Shown here: piece after piece, positions 19,133 to 49,069 of the stretch
Numbering within the stretch: the first letter of the stretch is position 1
Layout of the letters: each line of letters starts with the position of its first letter
Assembly (NCBI GenBank): GCA_903813345.2
Contig: CAIIXF020000006.1
Location: forward strand, 28,651,936-28,715,935
Source: Owenia fusiformis
Taxonomy: Eukaryota; Annelida; Polychaeta; Sabellida; Oweniidae
Length of the DNA stretch: 64,000 bases
Direction of reading: 5' to 3'
Program-made: the position numbers and the translations under genes
The notes under the pieces: generated by a model
What the model was told of the DNA's origin: nothing
The model's database searches: none
Seen by the model: only the letters and a program-made list of their open reading frames with translations

Positions 19133-19934
19133 GACGTGTCGCAAAAAGGTCGCGCACGCATTGTTAGACGGGTCGCAAAAAGCTCGCGCACGCATTGTTA
19201 CACATTTTGTAGCGTAATCCAGAGGATCCTCGCTTTTAACATGATACACTGGGGGGTATCGTGATGCAACAACACCGTGTTGTTGCATCAAGATGGCCAG
19301 ACTTCCGGTGATAGATTTTCGTACGATATTTTGTTTTCCCAATTTAAACCCATTTCTAGGACGAGTTGCTCAATAATCATACACGTGCAGTTAGCCCATG
19401 ATCTATATTTAAAAAAACTCTCATTAGTATGCATGTAGCATCATCAAGAAGCGAGAAATTCGCCGTTTTCATTCCTCACTATTGATGCAACAACACCACT
19501 CTGTTTATCATCGATGATGCAACAACACCAATGTGCTGATGCAAAAACGCCAATATAATGTATCATTGAATATCAAGCGAAACTGTTTCACGTTCTGTTT
19601 ATCTCGTAGGTGTTGGTCGGGACATGAATAAAACGCGTGAGTGCGTGGTTCATGAATGAAACGTATTTTGTTTGGTTCCTTAATGTATTTGTCTTTATGT
19701 TATCAAAGTTAAAAGGATATACAAGGTAAACTAAATACATAGGCTAAGTATTGAATCCCCGGGAGCCAACCTCATTGATATTGTATCTGAAAAATAAAGA
19801 TTATTCATTTTCTAAATTAAATCCCCTTGATTTACCGTATCGTATGGAAATTGTTTACAAAGAACTAATATAACTAGACTTTGGAAATTGAACAAGTTCA
19901 ATTTCAGACTCCAGATTTGGATTTTTTAAGCCGA

Positions 19935-20270
19935 GTCATCCAGAAAAAGATGGATGGATGGATGAAATAGGAAGGAGGGATAGGACAGAATAGGATGGAA
20001 CGATAGGAGAGAATAGAGAAGAAAGATAGGATAGAATAGCAAGGAAGGATAAGATAGGAAGGATAGGAAGGAAAGGATATGAAGGAATGGAAGGAAAGGA
20101 TAGGAAGGATAGATAGATAGGAAGGAAAGGATATGAAGGATAGATAGGAAGGAACGGATAGGGATAAAAGGGATAGTATAGGAAGGATAGGATAGAATAA
20201 GAAGGAACGATAGGATAGAATAGTAGGATAGGATAGGATAGGAAGGATGGATGGAAGGATGGATGGATTT
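19935..20270. repeat. GGATA/GGAAGG simple-sequence repeat
   Basis: Purine-rich low-complexity run of GGATAGGA, GGAAGGAT and GGATGGAT units. It produces a spurious Ser/Pro/Leu-rich frame on the minus strand. Confidence 0.9.
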
Positions 20271-20745
20271 TTCGACATTTTCTTGGCTACCCTTGACTTT
20301 CTATCAGGATACCATCAGATCGATTTTTCTCGAAATTTCAAAACGCCATAATTTCCGAACCGGAAGTCGGATCGAAATTTGGTTTGCAGATTCTGATTCC
20401 TGAGAAAATTCTATTCTTCATTCATAACTCAAACGTTAAATTTGGTGAATTTTTTATTTTGACCTACTTTTTGGACACCATATCTCAAAAGTGGGTTAAA
20501 ATACTTTCTGACGGCAAAGGGCTAACACTTTTAGTACACTCTTGGCTACATGTATACACAATTTCGAAGAATATAATTGAAGTGTAGTGTCAGAATCACA
20601 AAAATAAGGAAAACTTTTGAACTTGACCTAGATTTTGACCTAGACATTTTTGTGTCCAAATTTTGAAGCTAGATTGCTTTTGAGGTACCCTTCATTTAAA
20701 GGCTTTCATTAAATTAAGCTGTACTCGGTCGTATATCTGTATATA

Positions 20746-21853
20746 CAGGGTGGGCCAAAAAATTTTGCAACTTTTTTAAAAGGCTAGAAAAGTATCAAAA
20801 CATAAGGGTATTGCCATAAAAAATTATTTACAGAAACTTAAGGATAGGCATATTTTACCATTTAAATACTAAAGCTAAACTGGACTTCAATTTTTTTTAT
20901 CAGATCTTTGAATATCAATGGTCTATTGTTCATGTGTCCGAGATTTACCGTTTTTCCTAGAAAATGTTCCATTTATGTGATCAACAAGAACACATTCATT
21001 ATGTTCACTAAATCTGTTACAATCTTTGATAACTGTTCAACCAATGTCTAGTACAGTTTATATCAGTATCTAGTCACTATGATATTATGTATCTCTTGAT
21101 TTGAATATTCATTAAACTTTTATGCATCCACCTTTCACCTTATCTACAGCGCACAAGGAGACATGGGCGGAAGCGGAACTGGTCAATGGCGCGATCAAGC
21201 GATTCTTGTGGTAGTTCTCTCCACTTCTCCTGCAGAACTTCTTTTAGTTTAACAATAAATTGTGGGGGATTACCATTAACTGCAATAAGCTGCTCCAGGT
21301 GCCCCCAATGGTGATAGTCACAGGAGTTGGCATCTGGGGTATTTGGCAGCCATTCATCAGGACTAATAAATCAAGGCTTATTCTCCTCCAGATATTCCAA
21401 GTGACTTTTGCCCAATGGCTGGGAGCGATAGGGAAGGTGAAAGGGGGATGCATAGAACATTTGTTTAATAGATAATTAATAAATACAATATAACATAATA
21501 CCATAGTGACTAGATACTGATATAAACTAGACATTGAGGTAGACATTGTTTAAACAGTTATCCAAGATTGTAGCAGATTTAGTGAACATTATGAATGTGT
21601 TATTGTTGATCACATAAAATCATAGGAAGTCACATTTTCTAGGAAAAATTGTAAATCTCGGACACATGAACATTTGACCAATGATATTCAAAGATCTGAC
21701 AAAAACATTTGAAGCCAGTTTTAGCTTTAGCATTTGACTGGTAAAATATGCCTATCCTTAAGTTTCTGTAAATGATTTTTTATGGCAATACCCTTATGTT
21801 TTGATACTTTTCTAGCCTTTTAAAAAAGTTGCAAAATTTTTTGGCCCACCCTG
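20746..21853 (-). mobile_element. Tc1/mariner-type element with very long TIRs
   Basis: Left TA then CAGGGTGGGCCAAAAAATTT; right TTTTGGCCCACCCTG then TA. The arms stay complementary for roughly 300-400 bases (for example GGTATTGCCATAAAA and TTTTATGGCAATACC), leaving a short centre that encodes a transposase remnant on the minus strand. It lies inside element A. Confidence 0.8.
21140..21402 (-). pseudogene. Mariner-family transposase C-terminal remnant
   Basis: One minus-strand frame reads EYLEENKP, a stop, then PDEWLPNTPDANSCDYHHWG, followed by LEVLQEKW-like and PQESLDRAIDQFRFR segments to a stop at 21140. This matches the C-terminal catalytic end of mariner-like transposases (a W-PxxSPDLNPxDYxxWG motif, then the LDRAIDQFR helix). 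The in-frame stop and the loss of the first two thirds show it is dead. The element is probably moved in trans or is a relic. Confidence 0.65.
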
Positions 21854-21913
21854 TATGTCGTATTTTACACTTCAAAAAAATATTTTTTCCCTTTGACTTA
21901 ACATGGGGCGCCA

Positions 21914-22632
21914 AAGGAGCACGTGGGTTATCGCAAACAATTTCAGAAGGTTATATCTTGGATTATGACTATTTTCTAACAATGAAGACAAGTTTATCTT
22001 TTAGATCAATTCATTATCTCAAAGAAAATTATGCACAGTAATAATAAATTCAAACAAACTGAGAGATATTTAACTAGCAATTAACCCATCAACACACTTT
22101 TTGACCCCATTTTGAAGATGTTGACCCCATTTTCGCCAAAAATGCAATCAGTTTTTACAATGTTTAATGCATTACTATTCTTTATTTTGATGTATCAAAT
22201 AGTTCTTGAAAGAAAAACTGAATTGCATTAAGATAAGTGTTCCCCATGTTATTTCTCCATTGAAAAATCTCATGCTATCCATTGGTTTCAATTCATTTTG
22301 GTCATCCAAATTGAAGTCCCTGGAGCAATCAAATTTTCCCTTTAGGAAATCGAACATGTCTCAAAGCACATTCTAATTATGCATTCAACAATATAATAAT
22401 AGGTTGCATTTTTGGTGAAAATTAGGTCAACATTTTTGAAAAAGTATGTTGATTGGTCCATTGCCCCTTCAATATCACTTAGGTCTGATTAACTAAATTA
22501 TCATTATATATACTTTTCTTGAAGATAATGAATGGATCTAAAAGATACACCCATGTTCATGATCAGAAAATATTCATAATTCAAGTTAGAATCGTTTGAA
22601 ATTGATTGCGATAACCTACGTGCTCCTTTTAG
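21914..22632. repeat. Foldback element, ~720 bp
   Basis: Left GGAGCACGTGGGTTATCGCA and right TGCGATAACCTACGTGCTCC begin arms of well over 100 bases. A second inner pair (TTGACCCCATTTTCGCC and GGTGAAAATTAGGTCAAC) adds to the fold. No coding content. Confidence 0.7.
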
Positions 22633-23855
22633 AGCGATTTTGAGTTTTCAAAACGCCATAACTTCCGATGAGTGTAGGTTTAATGATATTGCAGTTATAC
22701 AATGCTATTATATAGAGGTTATTTACTGAGAGGGATTCAATATTGGTTTTATTCCGGGACACATTATGATATTTCCCGAGGGCCCAGGGGGAATCTGGGA
22801 TTACTGTACCCCTATTAATTTACCTTTTCGGGACCTAAATCCTATTACCTACCTTTTTACTCAATCGGGGAGAACGAATCCAAAGAGAACAATACTTCTA
22901 CATGTGCGCCGTGCAAGATTTCCAATAGCTCGTCGTGTTTACCGAGAACGAAAGATGTTTCCCCACCATTTTGAATGATACTAACTGGTATCAGGGTCAT
23001 CAAACTATGGAACAGGGGTTTATGATAATAGATTGGGTTACTATAGCTTGAAATGTTAAAGGTGATTGAACTATGTTATAAAACAACTTCCAGTACATTA
23101 TGATATTTAAAAGTATAAATTTTTGAAAATACATTATAAAGAATCTTCGCCCGCAGGACGTGTATTTTGAATGCCTGAGAAGAACGCAAATTTGTACTGG
23201 CCCGGTGTTGCAATAGTAGCATTTGAAAATCTGTTCCTCTCGAGATTTATGGTCTTCTGAAATTATACTATTAATTGGTGTTGTTGCATCATTGCTCCAA
23301 TCTAGAGGAGTGTTGTTGCATCTTCGGTTTGGTGTTGTTGCATCAATAGTGAGGAACTAAAACCGTGAACTTCTTGCTTCTTGATGATGCTACATGTATA
23401 CTAATGACAGTTTCTTTAAATTTAGATCGTGCGCTAACTTCACGTGTATGGTTATTGAGAAACTCGACCTAGAAATGGGTTTAAATTGGGGAAACAACAT
23501 ATCGTACGAAAATCTATCACCGGAAGTCTGGCCATCTTGATGCAACAACACGGTGTTGTTGCATCACGATACCCCCCAGTGATAGATGAAATAGTGTTCA
23601 TTCAATTTTCATTCAACTCCTATAATCCCGGTTAGCAGGGAAGATAAAAAGTACCAATGGCTATTCACATGATCTTACTAAGAATTAGTACTTTTCATCT
23701 TCCCTGTTAGCAGGGATTTATGACTTTCCAGGGAATTGGTTCACCTAGTACATATCATGTGACCATGAATAAGCCAATGAGCATCTAGAATACATATGTG
23801 GAATATAATAATACCGTCTATCACACTCTCCGTCATGCAATAATGCTATATTATA

Positions 23856-24082
23856 CATTCTCCTCCATGAGTTTGGCAACCATAAGCTTCTAATGGACAG
23901 TGCAATTTGCCTTGTTTGATTTTAGTTTTTTCCTCATCCACAATCGGATGAATACCATTAATGGGCTCTAATAACTGACACTGACTTTGTGACAAAGATA
24001 CATTAATTAACATCGCCAAACATAACATAAACAGACTTAAGCAAAAATGAAAGTTACCGTTGCCAAATTTTGGTGGGGAGTG
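23856..24082. mobile_element. 227-bp MITE with TA target
   Basis: Left TA then CATTCTCCTCCATGAGTTTGG; right CCAAATTTTGGTGGGGAGTG then TA. The minus-strand frame here looks like a signal peptide plus cysteine-rich protein but is contained in the MITE and is rejected as a gene. Related ends occur at 26030-26190 and 46750. Confidence 0.7.
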
Positions 24083-24496
24083 TAAGATTATATAATTCAG
24101 GTAAAAACAAATACATGATGTTTCATTTTGCGCCAAACTACAACCATATTTATTTTAACACCAGCGTTTTATTTTACAATAAACTGAATGCAGGGACCTC
24201 CATGCGTTCCGTTTCTGATTCCCTCTATGTACAGTGTGTATTATGAAAAATAAATTTAACTAAATGATTTTAGAATATAATATTATCAATATATCATCTT
24301 TAGATAAGTAAGTCTTGTCCTTTTCTTGTTGATAGGCCTCATGTATGCATTACCGTAGTATTCTAAGCTGTAGACATTCATAAGTGATTCATTGTTGTTG
24401 TAACCATGGATATCATAACGTCAGAGAGAACCAATTCATAGCTAGGAATGCCTATGGGAATGCACCGTTTGGATTATGTGGTAGTTCCACATGAGG

Positions 24497-24633
24497 CTAG
24501 TTTTCTATACAAGTGACTTGTTCGCCCGATACGCAACGAGTGGTTGTCTCTGTACTGTCAGGAACAAGGCTCCATCCATCTGGACATTCAAATGGGCTAC
24601 AAACCTTCTGAGCAGCCACACCGCCGATATCCG
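24497..24633 (-). CDS. Multidomain extracellular protein, last coding exon (Cys-rich tail)
   Basis: The exon begins after TGATTTTCAG in phase 1 and ends with TAG at 24497-24499. In the spliced frame it reads DIGGVAAQKVCSPFECPDGW and ends in CVSGEQVTCIEN. Four cysteines and no hydrophobic stretch mean no transmembrane anchor or GPI signal. The protein therefore ends as a secreted tail unless another splice form exists. The tail has no family I can name. The frame is fixed by the upstream Sushi exon (donor ACCC|GTAGGT). Confidence 0.7.
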
Positions 24634-25074
24634 CTGAAAATCATTTAATATGTAAATGATAATACAATCATAGAGTAAATGTTTTATTCTAACTTTTTTA
24701 CTGTAAACAGTATTACTCTTATTTGATATCAAATCTAAGCGCAAGTACATTTGAATAGATGTAATAATGACATTATGTCAAAACATCTTACAACCATGAA
24801 GCAATGTCACAGTCTATTAAAATTATGAATAATACAATTTCTACAGCTTGAATTTTATTTATATTTGTTTTATTTGTGTTCATTTTATCAAACCACTCAA
24901 CTCAACATTATTCAACGTTCTTCCTAGGTTTGACAATCATAACGTGTTGAAGTATGTTTATGCACCGGGGTGATAATATTGAGATTTCAAGACTTAATTG
25001 TACGATACAGTATTTCTTGATGTTAAGTATGACGTCTATATTGTGTATTTCTAATATAAGAATAAAAGACCTAC

Positions 25075-25257
25075 GGGTACACTCGGGCTCCGTGCCGGAC
25101 CATTCTCCGTTCGACAAACACGTACGTTCTTCACTTCCACTTAGCGTGTAGCCGTTTTTGCAACTATACACACGGAGATCACCGCGTCGTCTACCATTTC
25201 CTTCTGTTTTCCCATTGTCTACCTTTATATCATCACATTGCTTGACACGGTCTGACT
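25075..25257 (-). CDS. Multidomain extracellular protein, Sushi (CCP) domain 2 exon
   Basis: A 183-base exon with phase-1 borders (acceptor TTCTGTTTAG, donor GTAGGT). It encodes KQCDDIKVDNGK, then a CKNGYTLSGSEERTCLSNGE segment and WSGTEPEC. The four cysteines and the GY..SG...R.C...G.WSG..P.C pattern define a complement control protein/Sushi module. Such modules form beta-rich extracellular binding domains. One exon per module with symmetric 1-1 phases is typical of exon-shuffled Sushi repeats. Confidence 0.85.
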
Positions 25258-25641
25258 CTAAACAGAAAGAACACACCATCTACCCTAATACTATCACATT
25301 ATCTACATTAATATTATCATATTGTGTACCCTAATATTATCACATTTCGGTAAGCAGGTAAACGATCTTAACAGAAAGAACACATTGTCAACCATACTAG
25401 AGAGATTTCGCAACCGTACTTATGGCGTGTTTATCCAGACCCTTATCAAATGTTTATCAAGACGAGGGGAAATCCAAGAGCTTAACACTAAAACTGAATA
25501 TCAAAAAATCCGAAAGACGGTAACATGGAAATGAAACCCAGCATGCCATCTTAAGAAATGCTACCAAATCATGAATATTCAAAATATCCCGCGCCATTGA
25601 ATAACCATTAACCCAATCCAATCACAAAACATGTTACTTAC

Positions 25642-25821
25642 TTTCGCAAACAGTTTCGGTTCCAGTCCATTCGCCATTGTATTGACACGTTCGGGATCGA
25701 CTTCCACCTATAATTTCATAACCATCATCGCACTCAAAAAATTGTTCGCAGTTTGGCCAGATGTTACAGGTGCTAACTGTGGAACCATCCTCGGGATCAG
25801 CCAGGGTAGGGCAGGGAATGG
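25642..25821 (-). CDS. Multidomain extracellular protein, Sushi (CCP) domain 1 exon
   Basis: A 180-base exon with phase-1 borders (acceptor ATAATTTCAG, donor GTAAGT). It encodes IPCPTLADPEDGSTVS, then CNIWPNCEQFFECDDGYEII and a C.YNGEWTG...VC end. The CDDGYE..G...R.C...G.W motif identifies a Sushi module. Two additional cysteines early in the module (CNIWPNC) give six, which could form an extra disulfide. Confidence 0.82.
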
Positions 25822-26029
25822 CTGAAATTATTATCCATAAACAAAATTCTTGAGTAATTCCTGAAACTGTTATGGGTTAACAAAATACTCGAAGATAAGT
25901 AGCAGTAAAAATATTTATATTTTGATAGGTGTGACTGTGCGCGATAGCAATCAAGATATGTGATCAATTTGAATTGAATTGTTCTTGGGACAAAATCGCT
26001 CTTGAATAAAATAAAATAACCGAGATGTA

Positions 26030-26190
26030 CACCTGCTCCATAAGTTTGGAAACATCTTTATTTTACCTAGTATCATATTGGTGTCTACAACAGTTTACGT
26101 ATTCATTACTTTGGTGTTTTTTTTCAAATCAAAACACATAAACAGACTTTGAAGGGGTCTCCTTGTTGACAAACTTATGGAAGGGGTGGG
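26030..26190. mobile_element. 161-bp MITE abutting the TSP1 exon donor
   Basis: Left TA then CACCTGCTCCATAAGTTTGG; right CAAACTTATGGAAGGGGTGG G then TA. The right-hand TA (26191-26192) is part of the splice donor GTGAGTA of the TSP1 exon, so the insertion lies 7 bases into the intron. Related to 23856-24082. Confidence 0.65.
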
Positions 26191-26197
26191 TACTCAC

Positions 26198-26362
26198 GAC
26201 AAGGCTGGGCGTTACACTCCTCAAATTTAGTTAAAGGTCGAGCACAAATCATAACTTTCCCCTCCTCGTCATAGCAGACTTCTTCATATTCGCGTTCCCC
26301 AGCTCCACAGGTCACACTGCATTCTCCAATTGGTTTCCAAAGCTCCGTTACAACGCTACCCA
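26198..26362 (-). CDS. Multidomain extracellular protein, thrombospondin type-1 domain exon
   Basis: A 165-base, phase 1-1 exon (acceptor AATTATAG, donor GTGAGT). It encodes WKPIGECSVTCGAGEREYEE, then VCYDEEGKVMICARPL and FEECNAQPC. The W..IG.CSVTCG.G motif and six cysteines mark a TSP1 repeat. Only one of the usual WxxW tryptophans is present. TSP1 modules bind glycosaminoglycans and matrix proteins. Confidence 0.85.
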
Positions 26363-26833
26363 CTATAATTTCAATAACAGTAAACTGAATACTAGAATAT
26401 AGTATATGAATACCTATCGATGTGAAAAACTCCTTTCAGTCCAATGTTTAATCTATTATTATGAATATTCAAAACGTTCAAAATGTGAACATCTGCAAGG
26501 CCTAATCTGGACACCTTTGGCCGGTTCGAATGTTCGAATTAGACAGGGTGGGCCAAAAAACGTCCATAATTTTGAAAATTCGTAGATTTCAATAAAAAAG
26601 ATTAGCAGTAAATACAGAAATCAATTGTACAACTGTTTTCGAAGTGGGATAAATAAATCTCTAGGGTTCTTGATTCAAAAAGATAAACCCCCCCAAAAAA
26701 AGACTCATCTTAGTCCCCCACAATTCCAGTTATTTCTAGGCCTCTTATGGATAAGATCTTGATTCACAAAGTTTCAATTGTTCCTACCTCTAGACCCAGT
26801 GGAAAGCGACAATGGTGGATAAGAACAGCTTAC

Positions 26834-26953
26834 CTTTCTCACATTCAAGACCAGTTGCGCCTGTGGGGCAGTCACATGTCATTTTGTTTGGCTCCTGTGA
26901 GTTAGTACATGTTCCTCCATTACGACATGGTTGGGGCCAGCAATTGTCAACAT
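26834..26953 (-). CDS. Multidomain extracellular protein, EGF-like domain exon
   Basis: A 120-base, phase 1-1 exon (acceptor TTGTTATATAG, donor GTAAGC). It encodes VDNCWPQPCRNGGTCTNSQE and CDCPTGATGLECEK, a complete six-cysteine EGF module of the NGGTC/CxCPxGxxGxxCE type. The Asp-Val-Asp-like start is suggestive of calcium binding. The Asp/Asn hydroxylation consensus is not clearly met. Confidence 0.87.
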
Positions 26954-27696
26954 CTATATAACAAAAGGTTGTAAGGTTAGTACACTCCCATCCATATTGC
27001 AGCTGGAAAGCCATTTTGAATCACTCATCAAAGCCTTATCTGGCCTTTTAAGATGAATTCGTCAGTTTTGTCATCAAATCTTCAAGTATTGCGATTAGGA
27101 ACAAAATTAGGATTCAAACAATGTTGACATTAAAAATGGCTGCCATCACTGAGCTAACGTGTTTTAAATTCCAAAAGACATTCCTGAAATTAAAAGGTGG
27201 TATGGATTTAGTGAAGACAGACATACATACATACATGAAGACGGACGGACGGACGTGTCTAGCCCGACATATGGCACACTTGGTAGGTCTAAACGCGTCT
27301 ACCGATAATGAACCAGGCTAGGGTGCAAAAGCATGACTAGGGCGGTATTTTTTAATTTAAATTTCCAATATCTTGTTTAGCATTGACTTTTTAGTGACTT
27401 GATATCGGCGATACATTGGAGTGTTTGGAAGCTCTCATATTTTTCTGGATTTCTCTAATCGAAGTTAAACATGAATTGGAAGTACAAAAGAGATGTTATA
27501 ATAAATATCCTCCTTGAAAAAAAGTGTTACCTCGTCTAAAAATCTAAACATGTAGGAGCTTTCAAACAAAAGTATCATATTCAAATTTGACAAGGGGAAG
27601 TTCATACGTACTAAGCGAGACATCGCCTCTGTTACGCTAAATTGCACCCACCCGATTCATTATCGGTGGTTGCGTATACATATCAAATGCACTTAC

Positions 27697-28608
27697 TTTC
27701 TGATTTGACGTATCTCTTGATCACAAATGGTACTTTTGCGATATCTTTAACCCTCTCCCTCAGTTCATCTCTACATGTGTCGCTGATGTCATATTTCATC
27801 GTGACGTAGAATTCAGAATAATATGATGCATGTAAGACAATTTTTTCATTACCAACTTCTTTCGTGGCAATATCTGGTGACGATCTCACACATATGGTTT
27901 CTGCTGGATCGAAGGGGGTGGAGATAGAATTACCAATAGGGCACCATTTGAAGTTACCCTGATAACTAAATGCAAATTTGTTTGGACAGCTTTTGAATTT
28001 TGGAGACACAACAGTTGGGTATAGTTTACTGAACAAGCCTGTTGTTATTGTCATACATACTACATACTGCTCATCACTACACTGCAAGTCAGGATGGAGC
28101 ATGGCCATGGATTCGATGTAGTTGGCCTTTTCAAATTCATCCGCGCAGTCAATCCATTGATTCTCCAAAAGCCATTCGGGATCGTTTCGAAGCTTAAACG
28201 ATACCGTATCCCCCATGAGAAGTGCGTTCATGTCAATCGTGTACTTTTTATCCACGTTTGAAACACTTGGATTGTATGTCGGAACATAAACGCTGTATTC
28301 AATATCAGCCTCTTCGCTTACAACGATGGATATTATTTGGTCAATCGCATCCCTTGTGAAGTAATCATGTTTGCAAACACTAGGTCTCCTACCCCCGTTT
28401 CTAAACTCTATGGTGCTACATATCTGGATAGCTATCGACTGCAAACGTGCCTCGTCCAGAACAAGCACATTGATGATTTCATGCAGGTTTATTTGTGTCT
28501 CCGTAGAACCGATGAATTTCACATGTTCTTTGGCAATATGAAGTCCAAGAATTCTGCTAATCACACCTCCTTTGTCATCGATGTAGCCAGATAATGTCCC
28601 AATTTTAC
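27697..28608 (-). CDS. Multidomain extracellular protein, large exon of unknown domain (304 codons)
   Basis: A 912-base exon with phase-1 borders: acceptor ACCATTTAG at 28609-28610, donor AAA|GTAAGT at 27691-27696. It encodes KIGTLSGYIDDKGGVISRIL at its start, a middle with VYVPTYNPSVSN and WLLENQWIDCADEFEKANY, and an end with VPFVIKRYVKSE that splices into the EGF exon. About ten cysteines and a beta-rich composition suit an extracellular module. I do not recognise the family. Upstream exons, including any signal peptide, were not found. The first ~190 bases of the exon are copied in inverted orientation at 29312-29502. Confidence 0.75.
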
Positions 28609-29502
28609 CTAAATGGTAATGATACAATGTGTGTTAATAGACATTCAGACTCTATCACCATTTTCCACAAATTTATAGAGGGTAAGACTGATGATGCCGT
28701 GGCACTGACAGCAATGTTCATTTATTGACAGCTGTGCAAAACATTTACTCGATTTGGTTAAGACAAAATGTGAAGCAACAACTAGTAGTGTTAAATCAGT
28801 AAGGAAAGAGTTGCACCTTCTAATTAAGTTTCGTTCTCACAGGAATAGCTAACCTATAGAATATTAGGAATATTCCTTGCCAAACCATCTCTCTCCTCCT
28901 ATGGTAGCTATAACCATATATATACTTGCCATGTTTAGCAAACCACGCAAAAATGTTTTGATATGGTCAAATTTGATCACTTAGAAATGTGATGCTCAAT
29001 TCCAGTAAGCTGCCATCTTTTAAAATTTTACACAGGAAGTGATGTCATCGACTCTCAACTTCTATAGGTTAGCTATTCCTGTGAGAACGAAACTTAATTA
29101 GAAGGTGCAACTCTTTCCTTACTGATTTAACACTACTAGTTGTTGCTTCACATTTTGTCTTAACCAAATCGAGTAAATGTTTTGCACAGCTGTCAATAAA
29201 TGAACATTGCTGTCAGTGCCACGGCATCATCAGTCTTACCCTCTATAAATTTGTGGAAAATGGTGATAGAGTCTGAATGTCTATTAACACACATTGTATC
29301 ATTACCATTTAGGTAAAATTGGGACATTATCTGGCTACATCGATGACAAAGGAGGTGTGATTAGCAGAATTCTTGGACTTCATATTGCCAAAGAACATGT
29401 GAAATTCATCGGTTCTACGGAGACACAAATAAACCTGCATGAAATCATCAATGTGCTTGTTCTGGACGAGGCACGTTTGCAGTCGATAGCTATCCAGATA
29501 TG
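28419..29502. repeat. Inverted duplication: 443-bp arms around a 198-bp spacer
   Basis: Bases 28419-28861 and 29060-29502 are reverse complements with no gap and no mismatch that I could find by eye. The left arm holds the start of the 304-codon exon, its acceptor and about 250 bases of intron. The right arm repeats them on the plus strand, giving a 69-residue frame identical to the exon start but without the remainder. Confidence 0.9.
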
Positions 29503-29779
29503 ATAAGACTCATATTTTCACATTATATTATATTTTTGATTTTGATTTTCAACATCACATAAGTTGAATATCGCAGATATAGGTATGAGATGTATCACCC
29601 ATATGGTAATACCTAATTTGACCAAATAATACAAATATACCGAAATTACTGATGTACACTAGTACAAATGATATTCGATATGTCAATATGATACAATAAA
29701 CAACAATAACAAGGCACAATATCTTGATCACAGTTGATTAGTTGTCGATAGAGATTCATCTCCAAGATACCACTGATGT

Positions 29780-29988
29780 GTGGCGATGGACATCTTAGAC
29801 ATTCGTTTGTTGTCAAAAATCAGAGTTGCACTCTTACATTTGTCAAATATGTGGCGATGGACATCTTAGACATTCGTTTGTTGTCAAAAATCAGAGTAGC
29901 ACTCTTACATTTGTCAAATATGTGGCGATGGACATCTTAGACATTCGTTTGTTATCAAAAATCAGAGTAGCACTCTTACATTTGTCAA
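29780..29988. repeat. 71-bp unit repeated three times
   Basis: GTGGCGATGGACATCTTAGA begins each unit, which continues through TTTGTTGTCAAAAATCAGAG to TTGTCAAATAT. The copies differ at only two or three bases. The array lies within the LINE fragment and expands part of its decayed coding sequence. Confidence 0.88.
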
Positions 29989-30493: not shown

Positions 30494-30587
30494 ACAATGT
30501 GGAACTTTGGAAGATTTAAAAATCTGTAAATCGGTCTAGCTTTTGTCAAGCTTAGTCAAATGAGGCAGGTAGTGTGAAAGGTTTCTA

Positions 30588-30722
30588 GAAAACTCATCCC
30601 AAGACAACTCATCCCAAGACAAGTCATCCCTAAGACATCTCATCCCAAGACAACTCATCCCAAAACATCTCATCCCAAGACAACTCATCCCAAAACATCT
30701 CATCCCAAGACAACTCATCCCA
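30588..30722. repeat. Tandem 13-16-bp repeat, left arm of a foldback
   Basis: CTCATCCCAAGACAA and CATCTCATCCCAAAA alternate about eight times. The complementary motif GATGAGTTGTCCTGGGATGA lies at 31376-31395, so the pair can fold back over about 600 bases. Confidence 0.75.
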
Positions 30723-31445: not shown

Positions 31446-31463
31446 ACCGTGTGAAACTATCTA

Positions 31464-32876: not shown

Positions 32877-32879
32877 GTT

Positions 32880-37363: not shown

Positions 37364-37431
37364 TCATTAAATAAAAAACTATTAAAACAAATATGTACAT
37401 GAAATAGTCAAAACATTTTCAGTGACTGTGT

Positions 37432-38403
37432 TCATTCATTTTCTTCCACAATGTTACTATATAGTGCCTTCTTTGGTTCATTTTCAATTGTTCCTGGCGT
37501 TGATCCATCAGAACCTCTAGTTTTCCTCTTGTTCCTTGGAGTTGCCACTGAGTTGATGTGGTTAGCTACCTTATTATATCCATGTGGACTAAGGTGCACC
37601 CCTTTCACATCATTTTCTTTAAAGTCACTTTTGGATGTTTTTCCTTGGTTGCTTAGCAGCATTGCATCGTTATTTACAAACACAAGGAAATCTTCTCGTC
37701 TACATATCATATTCAACTGCTTATTCATAGTATCAATCTTTCCTTGTATCTTTTTATCATATGGGTGTACAGGGGTTATGCTACTAATGACAATTGAAGC
37801 CTGGGGGTGTCGTAAGTGTAGTGACTTGACACAAGATTCATATTTCACAAGACATGACTCAACCCTCTCATTATCATATACCAGGTTTTTTGTTCCTGCT
37901 TGTATTATGATCTTTTCTAGGCACTGATTATCGATTTTGTCTCTTTTCAATAGAATATCTATATCTTCGATTCCAGCACCACTTTTGGTTTTCTCACTGA
38001 CACCTTCTCTTTTCATTGAAGTATATATACCCTTTGCTATAGAGCAACCAGTTATTATTGTATCTATTTGTGGGCTGTCACTTGACTTAATGCTTTTATC
38101 ACTCGCTTTGGTATTTTTCTGCTCATCTTCTGTCATGATTGTTTTTGAGGCATTCAAAGGTGCAGGGCAGTCATTCCCTCGGTGACCTTGACCTTTGCAT
38201 TTGTGACAGACTGGTTCTAGGGTGCACGTCTTGGCAAAATGCCCAGGCTGCTGACAGTTAAAACATACTGGTTTTCTACGCTTGTCACATCTATATTCCG
38301 GATGTCCGACCTCGTTACAAATTCCACATGGTTGTCCTCTGTAGCTGAGTCGACCACTGAATATCACTGAATATGGTATTGCTTGTTGAGGATCACACAA
38401 CAT
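37432..38403 (-). CDS. LINE ORF1: CCHC zinc knuckles plus SGNH/GDSL esterase-like domain
   Basis: A 323-residue frame. Three CCHC knuckles lie at residues ~26-85 (CGICNEVGHPEYRC, CFNCQQPGHFAKTC, CHKCKGQGHRGNDC). An esterase-like region runs from ~115 to 290, with TGCSIAKG in the place of the nucleophile block, IIQAGTKNL in the place of the G-x-N block, and VHLSPHGYNKV as the D/H block. TGA and TAA lie just upstream of the ATG, and the usual N-terminal RNA-binding part of such proteins is missing. The LINE is therefore probably 5'-truncated near 38404. Esterase-bearing ORF1 proteins are known in CR1-like and some other LINEs. Confidence 0.75.
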   Translation of the reverse strand: MLCDPQQAIPYSVIFSGRLSYRGQPCGICNEVGHPEYRCDKRRKPVCFNCQQPGHFAKTCTLEPVCHKCKGQGHRGNDCPAPLNASKTIMTEDEQKNTKASDKSIKSSDSPQIDTIITGCSIAKGIYTSMKREGVSEKTKSGAGIEDIDILLKRDKIDNQCLEKIIIQAGTKNLVYDNERVESCLVKYESCVKSLHLRHPQASIVISSITPVHPYDKKIQGKIDTMNKQLNMICRREDFLVFVNNDAMLLSNQGKTSKSDFKENDVKGVHLSPHGYNKVANHINSVATPRNKRKTRGSDGSTPGTIENEPKKALYSNIVEENE

Positions 38404-40340
38404 TACCGTTTATCATTTATTTGAGATTTGAGCAGGGGTCCATTTTTTTAAGAAATAATCGTTTTAAACGATTTCTTGTGAATAGATAATGAATAAGTAC
38501 AAAAAGCATGAATTATTATATGTCAAGAGCATAATGTAAAATTTCAACTGAAAAATTAGATCAAAATGGAATCCATGTTCACAGTAGGGGGTATAACTCA
38601 TCAAACACAAGATAATTTTTTTAAAGCTTATTGTTACAGCCTAATGTTTTTAATTTGCTTTTTTTAGTTAGTATTATAACATTGACCATTTATGAATTTT
38701 TGAGCACCATACAAAGTTACAGAACTTCATTTATGAACGATTTCAGCAGGGGTCTATTTTACAAATATTAAGTATTTTTCCGGATAGTTCTTAGATGAAA
38801 AGCTAGAACAGTTTTACGATTAAATTACATCATTGGGGTGTATTAATCATGAAAACAGGTTTCATCCTGATGTCTTCAACCTAATTCGTATAACGCCACG
38901 TCACAAATGGGGGGAGGGGACATTGACCTCCACTTTGGGATCTTTATTACTTATATGATTTCAATATTACAGTAATGTTCGGTATCATTATAAACAGGCA
39001 TTAAATAAGTGTAGACTATTATAAATACGTTGATATTAAGAAGATTTATACAATTTAAACTGTAGAATGAAATAACAATGGGCTCTAAAATCACAATGAT
39101 TGGTGTAACTAATCAAATTTTTACTTTATAAGCTTAGTATCATGTCCTAACAATTTGAATTAATTTTAAATAGTTATCTAATTGTATTGAACGAAGTTCG
39201 GAGGGATATACGTCCGTCCGTCTGTCCGTCCGTACGTACGTACGTCCGTTCGGGCAATAACTCAAATACTGTTGGCCCAATTTTGTTCATATTTTGTACA
39301 CATATACCCTGTGGGGGTAGAAAATAGCGGCCATTTTGGTGCCGATTTTACAGTTATTTAGGTGCGATATGTAAAACTGTAATAGCAATATCTTTTAAAT
39401 GAAAAAAATGATATAGGACATTAATAAAGCTAGAAATGCAGATATTAAAGAAGCACATGGCAGCCATCTTGAAAAATGGTTGCCTTTACTTGTTATTTTA
39501 CGATTTTTGCTGTAACTCGAAAAGTAGTGGAGTGATTTCGTTCATATTTGGTATGTGAATACTATAAGCATGGCACACTGTCTAATGACACTTTTGGGAG
39601 AAGGCGGCCATTTTAAACATAGCCGCCATTTTAACATATTTTACTATAACTCGAAAAGTTGTGGAGCGATTTTGATCATCTCTGATATGTGAATACTATA
39701 AACATGGCACACTGAACTTTTTGAATATCTTAAAGTGGTTCAGATTTTCATTTATTGAAGATTTAATTCAAGATTAATTCAAAAATATATATTAAAGAAT
39801 GTTTTGTGGATAGTTGTCGGATCAGTTACTATTATTACCACCTTGCGGGGCATGTTTTGGTGGAATTAGTGCTAGTTTAGGTGGCATTTGTTACTATATC
39901 GACCTGAGCAATAATTCTAATAACGTCATTTCTGCGGGCAATATTAAGCCAAAATATTGATGATCAGCAGCTGATAATGGCAGAATACCTATTCCAGAAA
40001 AAAAAAATTGGGCGAGACGGTATTTATTAATTTCAAGAGAAAGTTTGGGTTCTAGCATTGCCTCATAGGACAGTCTATTTTCTACTAAATAAAATAATCA
40101 GGGTAAAGGCTTTTCTATTACTAAAGTTATTTGCTTGTCGAGATGCTTGTAAAGCCCGTATCGCAAAAATCATATATCCTTTCACCCAACATCATATCAT
40201 ATGCTTTATTGATGTTAAAATCCATTTTTATAAATAGTGGGAATAAATTCCCAACTCATCTTAGATTATGATTTAAATGCAATATTATATGTGATCAAAT
40301 GCTTTTTCCAAGGTTTAAAAATGTAAACAGTGCTCAGTTT
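38404..40340. other. Gene-free repeat-rich stretch
   Basis: AGCAGGGGTC(C/T)ATTTT occurs near 38433 and 38743. From 39190 there is a GTCCGTCC/CGTACGTA simple repeat, followed by sequence with GCGGCCATTTT and GCCGCCATTTT motifs. A diverged ~150-base duplication (ACTCGAAAAGTAGTGGAGTG and ACTCGAAAAGTTGTGGAGCG) lies at about 39515-39710. No exon seen. Confidence 0.55.
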
Positions 40341-40374
40341 CAGTGCTCAACAGGTGAAAACGTATGTAGGAATA

Positions 40375-40530
40375 TATAAGGGTTATGTACTGGGAGGTTT
40401 TGGATATGGGGTTTATCCAGAGGGAGGTATGCATATCTACCTGAGGGACCGTAGGGACCGAAGGTAGATGTGCATATCTCACGAGGGATGAACCCAATAT
40501 CCAAACCGACCGTACATAACTGCTTTATCC
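40375..40530. repeat. Hairpin element inside the tandem array
   Basis: GGTTATGTACTGGGAGGTTT pairs approximately with AAACCGACCGTACATAAC. An inner pair, GCATATCTACCT and AGGTAGATGTGC, extends it. Confidence 0.6.
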
Positions 40531-40777
40531 TATACCAAGTAGAGTTGTCAGGGGCATATGGCCATTTCAATAGTACAAGGTGTAAAAATAAACAAATCAT
40601 TCATATGCTAAGTCCTTTTATTGCATTACCGGAAGCAGGGAGATATGCACCGGGAGCGGGAAGATATTCACCGAAGCGGGAGATATGGAGGTTCTGGATA
40701 TGGAAACCTCAAAATCAGGATATGGGATATATCTTACCAAATTATCACCCTAAAACTCCACTTGGCATAGGATAAAG
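40531..40777. mobile_element. ~245-bp MITE
   Basis: Left GCTTTATCCTATACCAAGTA GAG and right CTCCACTTGGCATAGGATAAAG form inverted ends of about 25 bases. No coding sequence. Confidence 0.6.
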
Positions 40778-42368
40778 GCAGAAACAATTTGCAGATCAAC
40801 GAAAACAAGATTGTGTTCAAAGAAAGTGAACTAAATGGAACCATTATTTTTAATCATGTTGAATGCAAAATATAGTCAGACAGAAGATATTATTTTCAAT
40901 TAAAAAGTGTCAATATCTAATATTTTTCATTATTATGGACCTCTGTTAAACCCCTCAATGATAAGTAAACGGTAATGTTGACAGGTTCTCAACGGGTGAA
41001 AACGTATGTAGGAATATATGTTTTATCATTTAAACATATCATTAACAACGCAGATCAACGAAAAACAAGATAATGTTAAAAGAAAGTGAACTAAATGGAA
41101 CCATTATTTTTTATCATTTTGAATGCAAAATATAGTCAAACAGACGATCTTAGTTTCAATTAAACAGATAAAATCAATATGGCATACTAATATTAATAAC
41201 CTTTCCAAAAAAACTTCAAAAATATCAAAATCTTATATTTTTTATATTTTTTTGTGAACCCCTGTTAAACCCCTCAATAATTAATAAATAAGTTTATTGG
41301 TCTCTTGAACATCTAATGTACATCGAGATAAAATCAATTTGTTATACTAGTAAACTTTCCAAAAGCCGATTAGTGACTAGATAATCTGTTGTAAACTTCA
41401 AAACTATCAAAATCTAATATTTTTGTTGACCCCTCCCTGTTAAACCCCTCAATAATAAGTAAACAGTAAAGTCCTCAACAGGTGAAAATGTATGTGATAA
41501 TACATGTTTTATCATTTACACATATCATTTTACAATTGGTGGATCAACAAAAACAAGATGATGTTAAAAGAAAGTGAACAAAATGGAACAATATAATCAG
41601 ACACACGATCTTATTTTCAATTAAACAGATAAAATCAATAGGTCATGCTAATAACCTTCTCAAAAACCGATTCATGAGTAGATAATCCTTTGTAAACTTC
41701 AAAAATACCAAAATCTAATATTTGTATTTTTGTGGACCCCTGTCAAACCCCTCAATAATAAGTAAATGGTAATGTTGACAAGTGCTCAACATGTGAAAAC
41801 GTATGTAGGAATATATGTTTTATCATTTAAACATATCAAAACAATTGGCGGATCAACAAAAACAAGATGACGTTAAAAGAAAGTGAACTAAACGGAACAA
41901 TTAATTTTAATCATTTTAAATGCAAAATATAGTCAGACAGGTGATTTTATGTTCAATTAAATAGATAAAATCAATATGTCATGCTAATAACCATCCCAAA
42001 AAACCGATTCATAAGTAGATAATCTGTTGTAAACTTCAAAAATATCAAAATCTAATATTTTTCATTTTTTGTGGACCCCTGTTAAATCCCTCAATAATAA
42101 GTAAATGGTAATGTTGACAAGTGCTCAACAAGTGAAAACGTATGCAGGAATATGTATTTTATCATTTAAACTCATCAAAACAATTGGAGGATGAACAGGA
42201 GGAAACAGCTTAATTAAGGCTTATCTGAGAGATTCCATTATCACTACAAATACTATGTTGATGTCCATATTTCGATATGATTATTCGGACTCACTCGTAG
42301 ACTATATAGTGTTAATGGGAGGTTTTATTGACAACTTACTTTTATAAATATTCGTTTGAGCGATTAAA

Positions 42369-43745
42369 CGGTGTCCAACCATCCTTCTTCAAAGAATTTC
42401 ATTTATGCCTAAATTCCTATGCCTATATACTTGTAAAATACCCTTGCAGCAAGGATGTGTCCAACCAAAACGCTCTTACATGTACGACAGAGCGTTTTAT
42501 TTACGCGGAAACGCTGCGAAGCGAAATAAAATGGCGGCTAATGAAGTTCTGTAAGATGACTGTAAGTATTGTTTCACCCGTTTCTCTTTTATATCATACG
42601 TTATGGTGACATATTATGTACCATTCGATGAACAATACCCTGAGCAAAGATTATATTTATTCAACTTCTGGTGGTAAACTGTTAATTGCTTGACCAAAGC
42701 TCCGTAGTGTAGATCGAACGAATCTGAAGTTGACGAATTGACCACAAATTATGAATTAAACTAATATTTATATGAAAACGTCAATCTTTCAGTCAAAGTA
42801 GTAAATCACAAAGTCGTACATTCTCATTTCCTAAAATCCCAGTCCAAATCCATTACTTGTTCTCGAGAAATCGCTTGTTTTCCTCGAAACGCTCCGTCCA
42901 TTTAGGACACAATTTTAGAAACGCTTTTACCATTTTGTTTTGATATTATTTTCAGATTATTAGAGAAGAGTTCGGAATCGAATCTATCTCTCAAAAACGT
43001 GTTGTACTTGTTAGTCACCTGCTGGTGCTACACGTGCAACTAGTAGCCGGCTCTAGCCGACTTAAAGCCTACATTAGATGAAGTTATGCCTACATTTGTG
43101 ATAAAACATAAAACTATTGTCAAAAAAACAAAAAAATTATATGTGAATTAATCCTTCTTCTTTTGATGCCAAGGGGTAAAATAGATCTTTTCTTTCTCTT
43201 CCTGAAAAGGAAAGTAAAGCCATATATTTCCTAAACAGATCTAGACTACCGAGGCGTTTCCAGTTCACTGTGTTGACCAGATCGCAGCGTTTCTTGAATA
43301 TGAGAATGTCATCATCGTTTCGAAGACTGGATTTTCAGTCATCAAATCACAATTATGATAATGTATTGTGTGTTGGAGCATTGCAAATTGACCAAAATAT
43401 ACGTTGGTGCTCTAATTTTGGCTCAACTAATCACATGTCTCGACAAAGGGGGTTTTGACCAGTAGAATGACAAATACGTTTTTGAATTTTGATGAATTTT
43501 TGAACTATATTGCTTCGTAAAGCATCAAACGTCAACACCCAGCCAAGTACAACATGAATATCACACCCATCGAATGGTATACTCGAAATAAGTAACTCAT
43601 ACCTTTATTCCCATTATTAGGGAAATCGTCACACGGCTCATCCTTCCCGGCGCCCGCCAGTTTTCCTACTCCGGAGCGTTTCTTGGTTTAGATTCAGTAA
43701 TGAAACGCTCAGTCATGCATGTAAGAGCGTTTGTGTTGGACACCG
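42369..43745. mobile_element. ~1.3-kb TIR element (GTGTCCAAC ends)
   Basis: GTGTCCAACCAAAACGCTCT near 42457 pairs with AGAGCGTTTGTGTTGGACAC at 43723-43742. A further CGGTGTCCAAC at 42369 pairs with GTTGGACACCG at the right end, so the left end is doubled or the outer copy is the true terminus. Several AACGCTC and GAGCGTTT motifs lie inside. No transposase is visible. Confidence 0.6.
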
Positions 43746-44060
43746 TGGATTAAGAATACAAATGTTTTCTATATAGGTGCAGTTCAGCAGGGCCGTAGGG
43801 AGAGTATAGTAAAGAGAGACATGGTTTCTCTATTAGATGAGTTTCCATAGCTTTGAAATCTCACAAATTCTCGTTTTTCCATGATATTTTAAGAGATTTG
43901 CACCTTGACCTCTAACGACGAACTTTTCTTTCTTTTTGATAACTACTACTAAACATATTTGAATTCAGTGAAAAGTTTTCAACAATAATAACTTTGATTT
44001 ATACAATTAGTCATTTCAATCATTTTTCTTGACGTTTTAAAAAACCTGGGCCAAATCTTA

Positions 44061-45003
44061 AATATTATGAAGGGGGGGGGGGGGTGTATAGAGATATTGT
44101 ATATCGTATAAGAGGCTGAAAAATTATTGTATAAGAGGGGGCAAAATTTATCGTATATGGTATAAGAGGTGTAAAAAATATGGTATATGGTATAATAGAA
44201 AATATATGGTATATGGTATCTAGAATTAAAGAAGGCTAATTATGAAGAAATTGTACCCTAAAGTTCCCCCATTGTGCCAACTCTCTTACTGTAACCGTGT
44301 TGGAAAAACATGGAAAAGTAGTCTCTATAATTGGTTCCACATTCCAGGTCAATCAATACTGAAAGTTTAGAGAAAATCCCTCTCAAACTAAGAGTTTTGT
44401 GCCCTTTTCATTCAAGGAGGTGTTAAATATAGTCTCAAATAAGAATCACGCCAGGTGATCAGAAGAAATGAACGGAGGGGGAGTAGATCTAGCTGATTTT
44501 CGGTTGAAAATTCAACAAATCTTGAAGATTTATTTTTTCAAGAGAAAGTTAACGATTGAATGGCTAAATGAATAGACGCAGTGGACGGGGGAATATGTTA
44601 GGTCTTCTTGGATTTTTTTTAACTATGGAGTTCTAAAATAAAAGATCTATTAAAAAAGTGCCACGTCGCCAACGTGCAAATACCAATGTTTTTGCTATAA
44701 ATCAACCAACAGGGGTCTACACGACCTGTAATAAATACTTGTAAGTGAAAACTATTGTCATCATTGGTTTTGTAAAACATGTTACCATACGTTATATAAA
44801 AAGTAATCGAAAATTATTAAAATTGAATGGGTGGGGGGGGGGGGTAATGTGTCTATAAGACATATGAAAACTTCCAATAACTCCATATGTCCCCATTTTT
44901 CACTTTTCAGAGTTGTAATATCAAGTTACTGAGTAAGTGAGTTCATTTTTCAAGTACACGAATTTGTGGAAATTTCTTCCACCTTAAAGACATATTCAGT
45001 GGC
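44061..45003. repeat. ~940-bp repeat, copy 1 (partner at 57361-58307)
   Basis: It starts with a G run and GTGTATAGAGATATTGTATA, then GTATAAGAGG-type units, and ends at ACCTTAAAGACATATT. The same order of blocks, about 90 percent identical by eye, occurs in the same orientation at 57361-58307. Confidence 0.82.
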
Positions 45004-45983
45004 GTAGGAACAATGTACGCCAAAACGCCAGTGCGTAGTGTTGAAAAGTGAGAATAAAAAATGCTTTTTATTTTTCCTATGTTCTGTTCTTTAGTCATAT
45101 TCTCTCATTGTGCATAAATTTTAAAACTAATCTTCAGCACAGAAGCCTTAAGAAATATTATATTTAATACCATATATGATATCCTCAAAAGTATTCTTTT
45201 GCAAGGTTTTTGTGCCTCTGTTATTTTTCTAGCCTGGGCCACAGATAAATGACATTTTTTGAAAAATGAAATTCATAAAATATTGAAAGTTACCTTGTTT
45301 CTTATACTGTCGAAAATGCGATATAATCAATATTCCTTATTTTATGAAAATCAAGCCACTATTGACTATATTATGAATTCTAAAAGTGAAATACAATTTC
45401 GCCAAATATTCGTGAATCGGGTTTACTTCACGAATTTGATAGAAAAACCTTTTTTCAAAAACAACTTGATGAATACATTTTCAATTTTTGTGCATGGTGT
45501 GGTTTCATAATTATGGTGATGGACCCCTTGAAATTTTAGATATATATTTATTTATTATCCCCTATCCCCAATTTTTCAATTTCACTAATTCAATTTATAT
45601 TCCGTTGCTAGATAAAATCATGGACCGAAATTATATTAGAATAATAATAAGTCAGCAAAAATCTATTTCTTACTAAATCACTAATTGTTATTGGTAGTAC
45701 TTATAGACAAAAACAACATGAAATTGTTGATTATTCAATTCCACGTTCCCTTGATTTTAATGAGTTTTGGCAATACCTGCTATCTTTGAAAGTACATAAC
45801 TTCAGTGCTAGAAAAGCTTTTATCTGGATTTTTATTTCATTTGCAAGATAATAGATTATTATTTTCGGAAATATGGCATTTTTGGCACCCCCCTCTAGTC
45901 ACATTGACCTCGATTTGACCTTTTTGGAGGGGGGGTCATTTGGTGTTGCGAATTGTTGTTATAAAAAAGGTTGCAGACAATAG
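45004..45983. other. Gene-free AT-rich stretch
   Basis: Frames at 45259-45510 and 45488-45676 have no recognised family and no exon borders. A short CCCCCCTCTAGTCA / AGGGGGGGTCA pair lies near 45890-45940. Confidence 0.45.
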
Positions 45984-46867
45984 GGTTGCAACAACACCGT
46001 GTTGTTGCATCAAGATGGCCGGCCTTCCGGTGATAGATTTTCGCAATTTCCCAATTTAAACCCATTTCTAGGACAAGTTTCTCGATAATCATACAGGTGC
46101 AGTTAGCACACGATCTATATTTTAAAATATTGTCATTGATATACATGTAGCATCATTCAGAAGCGATAAATTCGCTGTTTTAGTTCCTCACTATTGATGC
46201 AACAACACCATTATGTTTATCATCAATGATGCAAAAACACCAATGTGCTGATGCAACAACGCCAGAGTCTTTATCAAACTTAAAAGGATATACGAGCCAA
46301 ACGATATACATAGTAATAGTATGCAATCACATATTATGATATTGTAGTACATGTACGTTTACTAAGTAAGTTAATCACTTTCTAAATGACATCTTAACAG
46401 ACACTAATGTGGTCCCAAGTCTGGAGGCCTGTGCTTGGAGGATGTCCCACATCTTGAAACTACTTTGAACTAGACAACTTAAACGTAAAAAGGCTGGTCG
46501 CCCAATTCGTTCGAATCCCAATGGTCCGAACCCTATTTGCCAGGAATGCGTGGAATAAATCATCGCGTTGATTGATTATTGAATAAAATAGATTTCCCGT
46601 TTAGCCGTGATTATTGGAAACATTACGGTTAGCTTTTTACACTTTTCATGCTTTGGCCAAGTAAATATTTCTGATTTTGGTCTGATTTTTTTACAAAGAA
46701 CTAGTATAATTATGGAAAGTCAGCAGATATCAGTCATTTTTGTTTATTACACTCCCCTCCAAAAGTTTGGCAACCTTGGCTCCCTCATTGAATTACATGT
46801 TAAAGCCTCTTTATATTTGAATTTTTATTGACTTGACCTGTGAGGAAAATACATGATTGAAATGTAA

Positions 46868-47490
46868 CTTGACTTCATTTCCAATGCCTCCAAATTTTCC
46901 AAATTTTTCTCTCAATTACAATAAAGGTAGAAAATTGATGATTTTGATGAATTTTCGAAAATCGTCATTCCTTTGTAAACCAATGGGAAATGGTATGTTC
47001 GGGGCAAATCTGATTTCAAGATATCTATTCAGTAAAAGATTCACCAAAAAATATTTTTATATAGAAAATTAAATTATATAACTTTTTTGTACGCTGAGTG
47101 TTCAGCTTAGTTTTTGAATACTAAAGTTACATAGCTTAAAAGTCATTTTTGAAAATCTTTTTCGCCTCGTGTTATTTCAATGGGAGGATTATTTTTGAAA
47201 AATAATTTTGACTTTGAAGATCTATACTTTTTGAAACCTGAAGAAAAGTATCAATTTTATTATTCAATAAAGTTATCAAATTCAATGGACTACCTAACTC
47301 GTATTGTTTACAAGAACAATGGATGAATATTCTGTCATATGACTTGCGGCAAACCTATCATTTCCTATTGGTTTACATGGGAATGTCGATTTTCAAAAAT
47401 TCATTAGATTTATCATCAATTTTCAACCTATTGTAATTGAGGAAAAAAATTGGGAAAATTTGGAGGCATAGGAAATGAGTTCAATTTCGC
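46868..47490. repeat. Inverted repeat inside element B
   Basis: CCTCCAAATTTTCCAAATTT and its counterpart AATTGGGAAAATTTGGAGGC lie at the ends of ~150-base arms (46868-47030 and 47340-47490). The arms also share CCAATGGGAAA and TTTCCTATTGG. Confidence 0.65.
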
Positions 47491-47767
47491 CACTCGCATA
47501 TTTGTTCATAATTTGTAAGGTTCGCGTAATGACTGTAAACGACAATGGAGAAAACACAGACAATCGGGATTTGTTTGATGGTTTAAAAAAGGGAAGGAGC
47601 ATTCACTTAATCAATCAAAAATTCGAGAAAATAAATGTGGGAATATTTGAGAGAACAGGAAAATCCACCCACGGCCAAGAAAACAAAACTTGACATGAAT
47701 ATTCTAAAATATTTCCACGATTGAACAATGTGAACCAGATGACCAAGATTGGTATGGGATAAACATA

Positions 47768-47912
47768 TTATCCTATAGTCGGTTCAGGATATTGGGATTA
47801 TCCCTTGGCCAATATACTGTAATATATTTTACCTCAGGACCTGCGGCCCTCGGGCAGATATATTATATTTGCCTCGGGATAATCCCAATATCCTGAACCT
47901 CAGGATAATCTC
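47768..47912. repeat. Hairpin repeat
   Basis: TTCAGGATATTGGGATTATC and GATAATCCCAATATCCTGAA are exact inverted repeats, with further pairing of TATATT and AATATA toward the centre. Confidence 0.75.
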
Positions 47913-49069
47913 TATATTTGATAGATGCATTAACTTCAGAAAGGGTTCACCTAGGTATAAAAGAGTATAAAACGAAGCGACACGTTTTTTAAGATGTACA
48001 ATATAATATGAATGTCCAATATTACGACACCTGGGATTAGTGTACCCTCTCAATTTTACCTTTTTGGGACCTAAATCCTATTACATTATGGTTTAACAAT
48101 ATGACATCCATTGGTGTTGTTGCATCTTGGCTCAAATCTAGATGGGTGTTTTTGCATCTTCGGTTTGGTGTTGTTGCATCAATAGTGAGGAACTAAAACC
48201 GTGAATTAATCGCTTTTCGATGATGCTACATGTATACAAATGACAGTTATTTGAAATATAGATTGTGCACTAACTGCATGTATATGGTTATTGAGAAACT
48301 CGTCTTAGAAATGGGTTTAAATTGAGAAAACAAAATATCTTACGAAAATCTATCACCGGAAGGGTGGCCACCTTGATGCAACAACACGGTGTTGTTGCAT
48401 CACGATACCCCCCAGTAGATTGAATGTGACGTTTTTGAGAAAATGTACACACATGAAAATCCTTTCGTCCTCCACATTTACCTCTATATCTCAAAACATT
48501 TTAGACGAATAACTCTGATATCATATATATATTGTTAATGGGCTAGGAGCATCATAAAACACGAATCAATTGATATTTTAGGTGAAATAAATATACGTGT
48601 TGCTGTGCTTGAAAATAGCCGAATGGCGTAAATTAGCCCTATTTTAATGAATTTTGAAAACCTTTCGTCCTCCACTTTTCCACATACAACAGAAAACAGA
48701 TACTTTTGCGAACAAAATCAACTATTGATTAGTTTAGGAGCAAAATAATCATGTATGATTTATTAAAAATTGATCTCGTATTTTTTGTTTAATGTACACC
48801 TGAAAAGCTGAAGGTAACAAAAAATGAGCAAAAAAGGTCGCTGTCAACAGATTCTATTTTTCAAACTCTATGACGTCACTATATGGGACGCTTACTAAAA
48901 TTCATCCTTTGAAATAAAACGTCCATCTACCTTTATCGAGACGAAAAATAAATATAATAGTCATATATTGTTTGAGTTATGAGCGTTTAAAGACGAAAAA
49001 TAATTCAATATGTAACGTGTCAACAGGGGATATTTGCCAGATGTGTTGGTAAAAAACACTTTTTTAAAA

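Follow-up and report, generated by a model that had tools for sequence, protein, structure and literature searches.

The locus analysed here raises the question of how 29 kb of gene-carrying DNA came to lie inside a transposon copy of the annelid Owenia fusiformis. The window, that is, the whole stretch of 64,000 nucleotides on contig C6 that was analysed, was initially annotated as holding a possible composite mobile element, in which two related elements had moved the DNA between them, with recombination between element copies given as the alternative. Our comparisons with other copies of the elements in the genome support the first of these readings, since the target is intact in the other loci of its family that were read and the interior has a second locus, both of which are described below.

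The interrupted target

Two copies of a transposon family, here called D (ends GACGTGTCGC), are present in the window. Self-comparison places the first at 6617..7492 on the minus strand, the copy that served as reference in the initial annotation, and the second, D2, in the opposite orientation, in pieces at 19133-19208, 48422-49069, 50681-50812 and 62573-62626. Together with the alignment of D loci, this gives for D2 a left part with a doubled D end (19133..19246, plus strand, second start at 19167), a continuation at 48418..49069, a further one at 50681..50812 past an insert of ~1.6 kb, and a right end at about 62573..62625, past an LTR retroelement. D2 was thought to suffer a single interruption, but three insertions break it up: a block of 29,171 bases, the ~1.6-kb insert and the retroelement. 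The last of these (50813-62572) has identical 137-bp LTRs, the duplication ACATT on both sides, and aspartyl protease, reverse transcriptase, RNase H and integrase domains in separate frames. The ~1.6-kb insert (49070-50680) consists in part of repeated GACAATTGTCGGTAC motifs, and a tRNA-like stretch was seen by eye near 49290-49355; ARAGORN reported no tRNA anywhere in the window, and a search of 48000-51000 for tandem arrays gave none.

The block breaks D2 at 19246/48418. When the D2 flanks are joined (19167-19246 plus 48422 onward), the join is gapless against 14/14 other D loci read, which were picked by similarity to these flanks and are thus no random sample of D. In 13 of the 14 rows of the alignment, the only gap within 30 bases of the join is one deleted base, 18 bases to its right; the remaining row (L008) has two gaps. 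According to our reading of the match tables, at least seven D loci match both the left and the right flank queries, and the queries overlap by 4 bases in each. The bases at the break are GATA on the left and GATT on the right, i.e., 4 bp with one mismatch. Judged by these closer relatives, the target was interrupted without loss, so that the split of D2 by a 29-kb block stands, while the loss of about five bases initially reported for it does not; the sequence of the copy at 6617-7492 differs from D2 near the join. The uninterrupted state seen in all 14 loci is that of other D copies and not of an empty allele of this site, and thus answers only in part the search for an empty site that had been suggested. 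Many solo copies of the 19133-19246 fragment, which would have spoken against a composite element, were not seen among the loci read. As for D itself, copies with both ends found, other than D2, have matching 3-bp flanks in 9/10 cases, and the flanks of D2 (AAT/AAA) agree in two of three bases.

Two elements of one family at the borders

Both break points coincide with the outer ends of CACTGG-type TIRs, as first described, and these ends follow a 20-base pattern that occurs 3 times in the window when up to three mismatches are allowed, versus 0.00 expected in shuffles. They belong to a second family, E, with ends CACTGGGGGGTATCGTGATGCAAC (CACTG at the termini) and target duplications of 5-6 bp. 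On the left, the block opens with element A (19247..23581, plus strand), a complete E element running from CACTGGGGGG to CCCCCCAGTG. Nested in A is an insert of ~1.1 kb (20741..21853), which none of the three full E copies read contains, with inverted repeats at 20743-21141/21434-21856 in the self-comparison. The right border is the end of element B (45987..48417, plus strand), which belongs to another E subfamily, has lost its left terminal bases and has the right end CCCCCCAGTA, where CAGTA stands instead of CAGTG, the last base of B being altered. The outer borders of the block are thus mutually inverted E ends contributed by two separate elements of one family.

The two elements differ in their relatives. 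With nested inserts excluded, A is 98-99% identical to two of the three full E copies, and likewise to the third save for one 424-base stretch at 93.6%. The interior of B has only short stretches in common with A-type copies; its relative is found on contig C10, to which it is 95% identical at the left end, 97% in the interior (1716/1846 bases) and 99% in the right TIR. This relative (C10:24990501 to about 25002736) is 12.2 kb long, is flanked by an exact 5-bp duplication, TATTA, and has been enlarged by inserts that include LINE-like sequence; in the 5 of its 12 frames of at least 90 aa that were scanned, no transposase was found and there was one weak LINE-type match.

These relationships bear on the possibility that the block arose by homologous recombination, in which an E element already present in D2 paired with another molecule, for instance a circle, that carried the source segment and a second E. 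In favour of such an exchange, the TIRs of A and B are alike, with 84-93% identity among the E ends in the window, and the source locus (see below) lies on the same contig. Yet recombination is expected to leave hybrid elements, and none was seen in A or B: A follows one E subfamily lengthwise to both ends, and B another at its left end, interior and right end. Because of this we consider recombination, the alternative put forward in the initial annotation, the less likely course and an unlikely one overall, with the proviso that the hybrid argument does not reach a crossover in the last few bases.

The target duplications give a second line of evidence. Exact duplications of 5-6 bp flank 7/7 other E elements for which both ends were read, whereas the flanks of A share 3 bp, which makes a normal insertion of A by itself into D2 unlikely. 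The outer flanks of the A/B pair show no duplication under exact matching and match only as the GATA/GATT of the break when one mismatch is allowed. A Pack-TIR, i.e., a single element with captured DNA, does not describe the block either, as A is complete with both of its ends and B is of another subfamily. That E preferentially inserts at this position of D was considered too and is made unlikely by a genome-wide pattern search, which gave no second E insertion at the D site. Its two matches were the window itself (exact) and C6:26319107 (2 mismatches, no CACTGG start), and the reversed control gave 0.

A and B might also have been placed by coincidence in neighbouring D copies at the same site, with the remainder deleted afterwards. 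Both families are abundant enough for this to be thought of (428-569 first-look candidates genome-wide for D and 758 for E, copy numbers that are lower bounds). But the search for E in D revealed no site preference, both D parts would need to share one end position within 4 bp, and the DNA past A would need to start exactly at the terminus of A; we therefore find such a coincidence extremely unlikely.

The source of the interior

The DNA between the two elements has a counterpart on the same contig, 20.2 Mb away. Window positions 23582-43906 match C6:8481653-8411211 with order and orientation kept and with large gaps, and 189 of 10,418 aligned bases differ (1.8%), a figure summed over seven pieces, each represented by its best-matching row; two of the pieces overlap at the source because of an inverted duplication in the block. 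The first copied segment (23582..29502, minus strand) contains part of a Sushi-type gene, ends in that inverted duplication and matches C6:8481653-8476426 with 0.6-2.8% substitutions by piece. The second (29496..43906, minus strand) is colinear with the source and broken by an insert at 33072-42244, its two parts (29496-33071 and 42245-43906) matching C6:8426634-8411211, where the transporter part is present in two tandem copies. About 50 kb separates the two matching stretches at the source, so the unit has been rearranged. The suggested search for other copies of the genes, run in part, gave a second locus with the Sushi-type gene and the transporter at C6:8.41-8.48 Mb; like the uninterrupted D loci, it favours the composite reading. 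The split state of D2 suggests the direction, namely that the DNA between the elements would have come from elsewhere.

The match to the source starts at 23582, the first base after the inner terminus of A, and A is absent from the corresponding source position. That position is 2 bp (by eye) from the end of a small E-like element, L057 (C6:8481654 to about 8482240), whose ends resemble CACTGTTCCACAACTA and whose flanks are unmatched by eye; with this element adjoining and its own flanks unmatched, the source position is no clean empty site for A. Near the source locus there is also a tandem array (C6:8487357-8489600) of units of about 190 bp. On the other side, homology to the source stops at 43906, 2.1 kb short of B, and B was not found at the source in C6:8407001-8427000 (the stretch C6:8427001-8451599 was unread).

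Since the difference of 1.8% could be allelic and every join falls in repeats, a misjoined allelic or duplicate piece of C6:8.41-8.48 Mb has to be considered as an assembly artefact. Against it, the window contains no N, its junctions lie at element termini, and neither the junction between A and the first segment nor the inverted duplication was found elsewhere among the matches listed; we hold an artefact to be very unlikely.

The order of events can be approached through private substitutions, which number 16/651 in the right part of D2 and 8/1504 in A. Set beside these and the 189/10,418 differences between block and source, D2 looks older than the block, and the counts, which carry no clock calibration, agree with a sequence in which D2 came first and the block later. 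The right part of D2 has more private substitutions than 12 of the 14 other copies, and fewer than L004 (22/662) and the badly aligned L008 (265/633). Other stretches of D2 are uneven (1/79 in the left part, 10/132 in another), so that subfamily differences contribute to these numbers.

Genes and changes within the block

An MFS transporter is encoded at 31464..32885 on the minus strand (open frame of 473 aa from stop to stop, MFS_1 E 2.8e-22). For the EGF/TSP1/Sushi gene, a domain search gives a Sushi domain in one exon (E 1.8e-11); the EGF and TSP1 exons were seen by eye in the ORF list. The window lacks any match to a candidate upstream exon of this gene at the source (C6:8475488-8475661, with a weak C7 paralogue match, E 1.8e-4), so that the carried gene is probably 5'-truncated. 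The LINE noted in the block is likewise present; its two open frames (33596-38409) encode 325 and 1255 aa, and it lies within a 9.2-kb insertion relative to the source (33072..42244) that has the ends TAGTGATAA/TTATCACTA and the duplication CAA.

Two further changes set the block apart from its source. A 443-bp inverted repeat with 100% identical arms (28419-28861 and 29060-29502, spanning 28419..29502 in the self-comparison) closes the first copied segment and has a single arm at the source. Next to B, positions 43907..45987 hold repeat sequence not seen at the source and cut at the B junction; of this, 44072-44996 also occurs at 57364-58306, and 44993-45987 is a repeat, X, that stops where B begins, while both X copies read run on past that point. 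As X is cut and the left end of B is missing at one and the same point, the junction between them can be read as a deletion that left B with its outer end alone.

Some of this could be the signature of repair: a break within E elements in D2, or next to them, would have been mended by a template-switching copy from C6:8.41-8.48 Mb. The interior gap, the inverted duplication and the cut junction at B look repair-like, and gap filling is given as the explanation of most single-copy animal Pack-TIRs in PMC8277862. Gap filling, however, predicts short fillers (median 224 bp), mostly from nearby, and breaks inside the element (PMC8277862), whereas here more than 10 kb was copied from 20 Mb away and joined exactly at the terminus of A. 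Capture by repair thus seems improbable to us.

Giant self-mobile transposons of the Maverick or Teratorn type carry their own integrase, transposase or replication genes between their ends. One large element of this kind was rejected, as no such genes were found in 17 of the 18 block frames of at least 100 aa (the low-complexity frame at 19936-20286 was left out). In these 17 frames no transposase domain was detected, and the domains are of Sushi/cEGF, MFS and LINE type only.

Composite transposition as the favoured reading

We therefore return to composite transposition, in which A and B moved the intervening DNA as one unit, a macrotransposon, through the left end of A and the right end of B, and which we consider the probable explanation. 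The block has the structure of such a unit: paired E elements of different subfamilies with their ends at both borders, a target that is split without loss, and an interior that would come from elsewhere, with a matching source 20 Mb off. The course of events would have been the following. With D2 already in place at the site, insertions of A and B would have come to flank a stretch with the Sushi-type gene and the MFS transporter, the locus concerned being a copy or allele of the one found today at C6:8.41-8.48 Mb. An externally supplied transposase active on E ends would then have paired the left end of A with the right end of B and put the whole unit into D2, with a short target duplication made. 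The 9.2-kb insertion, the inverted duplication next to the large gap relative to the source, and the X/B deletion would be changes that the interior underwent before or after the move. In this scheme we infer the enzyme, the intermediate, the movement in one step and a donor with A and B, of which no trace was present among the matches listed in the assembly. The imperfect outer duplication, the altered end of B and the source match that ends 2.1 kb before B are points against composite transposition. The same holds for the lack of a transposase domain in the scanned frames, the rearrangement of the unit relative to its source, and the source position itself, which is no clean empty site and where neither A nor B was found.

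A variant like the replication-linked composite insertions of maize was also considered. There, the ends that take part point towards one another in the donor locus; the source positions here face outward and are 70 kb apart, so that a plain macrotransposon fits better. More tentatively, and with the doubtful side prevailing, pairs of non-autonomous E elements might act here as natural macrotransposons, having moved a multi-gene unit of possibly about 70 kb (the span of the source counterpart, taken for the departing unit) over 20 Mb; further gene duplicates dispersed in this genome may have arisen in the same manner.

Comparison with known systems

In bacterial composite transposons, a pair of insertion elements moves the intervening DNA, and one of the flanking elements usually encodes the transposase; in contrast, no transposase was found in the scanned frames of A or B. 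Paired elements moving intervening DNA have also been reported for foldback and P elements in Drosophila, which are different element families. The mechanism is already known and documented mainly in maize, and a natural animal case with both target and source visible seems rare; the literature searched, whose coverage is partial and no proof of absence, yielded no natural animal macrotransposon of this kind.

A close parallel is offered by the maize Ac/Ds macrotransposons, where, in the sections available of PMC9910405, the ends of two linked elements cooperate and the intervening DNA moves as a unit, as in a 28-kb unit that was excised and a 10.3-kb unit that was reinserted (PMC9910405); Ac/Ds composite insertions are covered as well by PMC4270019, to the extent of its available text. 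As described in those sections, the maize system has a known enzyme (Ac), known 8-bp duplications and events seen in pedigrees (PMC9910405), whereas here the host is an animal, the outer duplication is imperfect and the event is inferred from sequence. At the White Cap locus of maize, a macrotransposon insertion brought a gene, ccd1, to a new place and was followed by tandem amplification, according to the accessible part of PMC6553525; here, the matches listed include no second copy of the entire block.

The origin of dispersed host-gene duplications in animals is often unclear. As the target, the carrier ends and the source locus can be named here from one assembly, it becomes possible to test directly whether a transposase moved host DNA on the scale of genes. 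Animal Pack-TIRs resemble the block in that host DNA is duplicated between the ends of TIR transposons; as characterised in the consulted excerpt of PMC8277862, each of them is one element with a short insert (median 224 bp; the search was limited to 5 kb), whereas two separate elements here surround about 22 kb, more than 10 kb of which matches the source. Should this be confirmed, pairs of non-autonomous elements could redistribute DNA the size of genes in animals, and not just short fragments such as those reported as Pack-TIRs.
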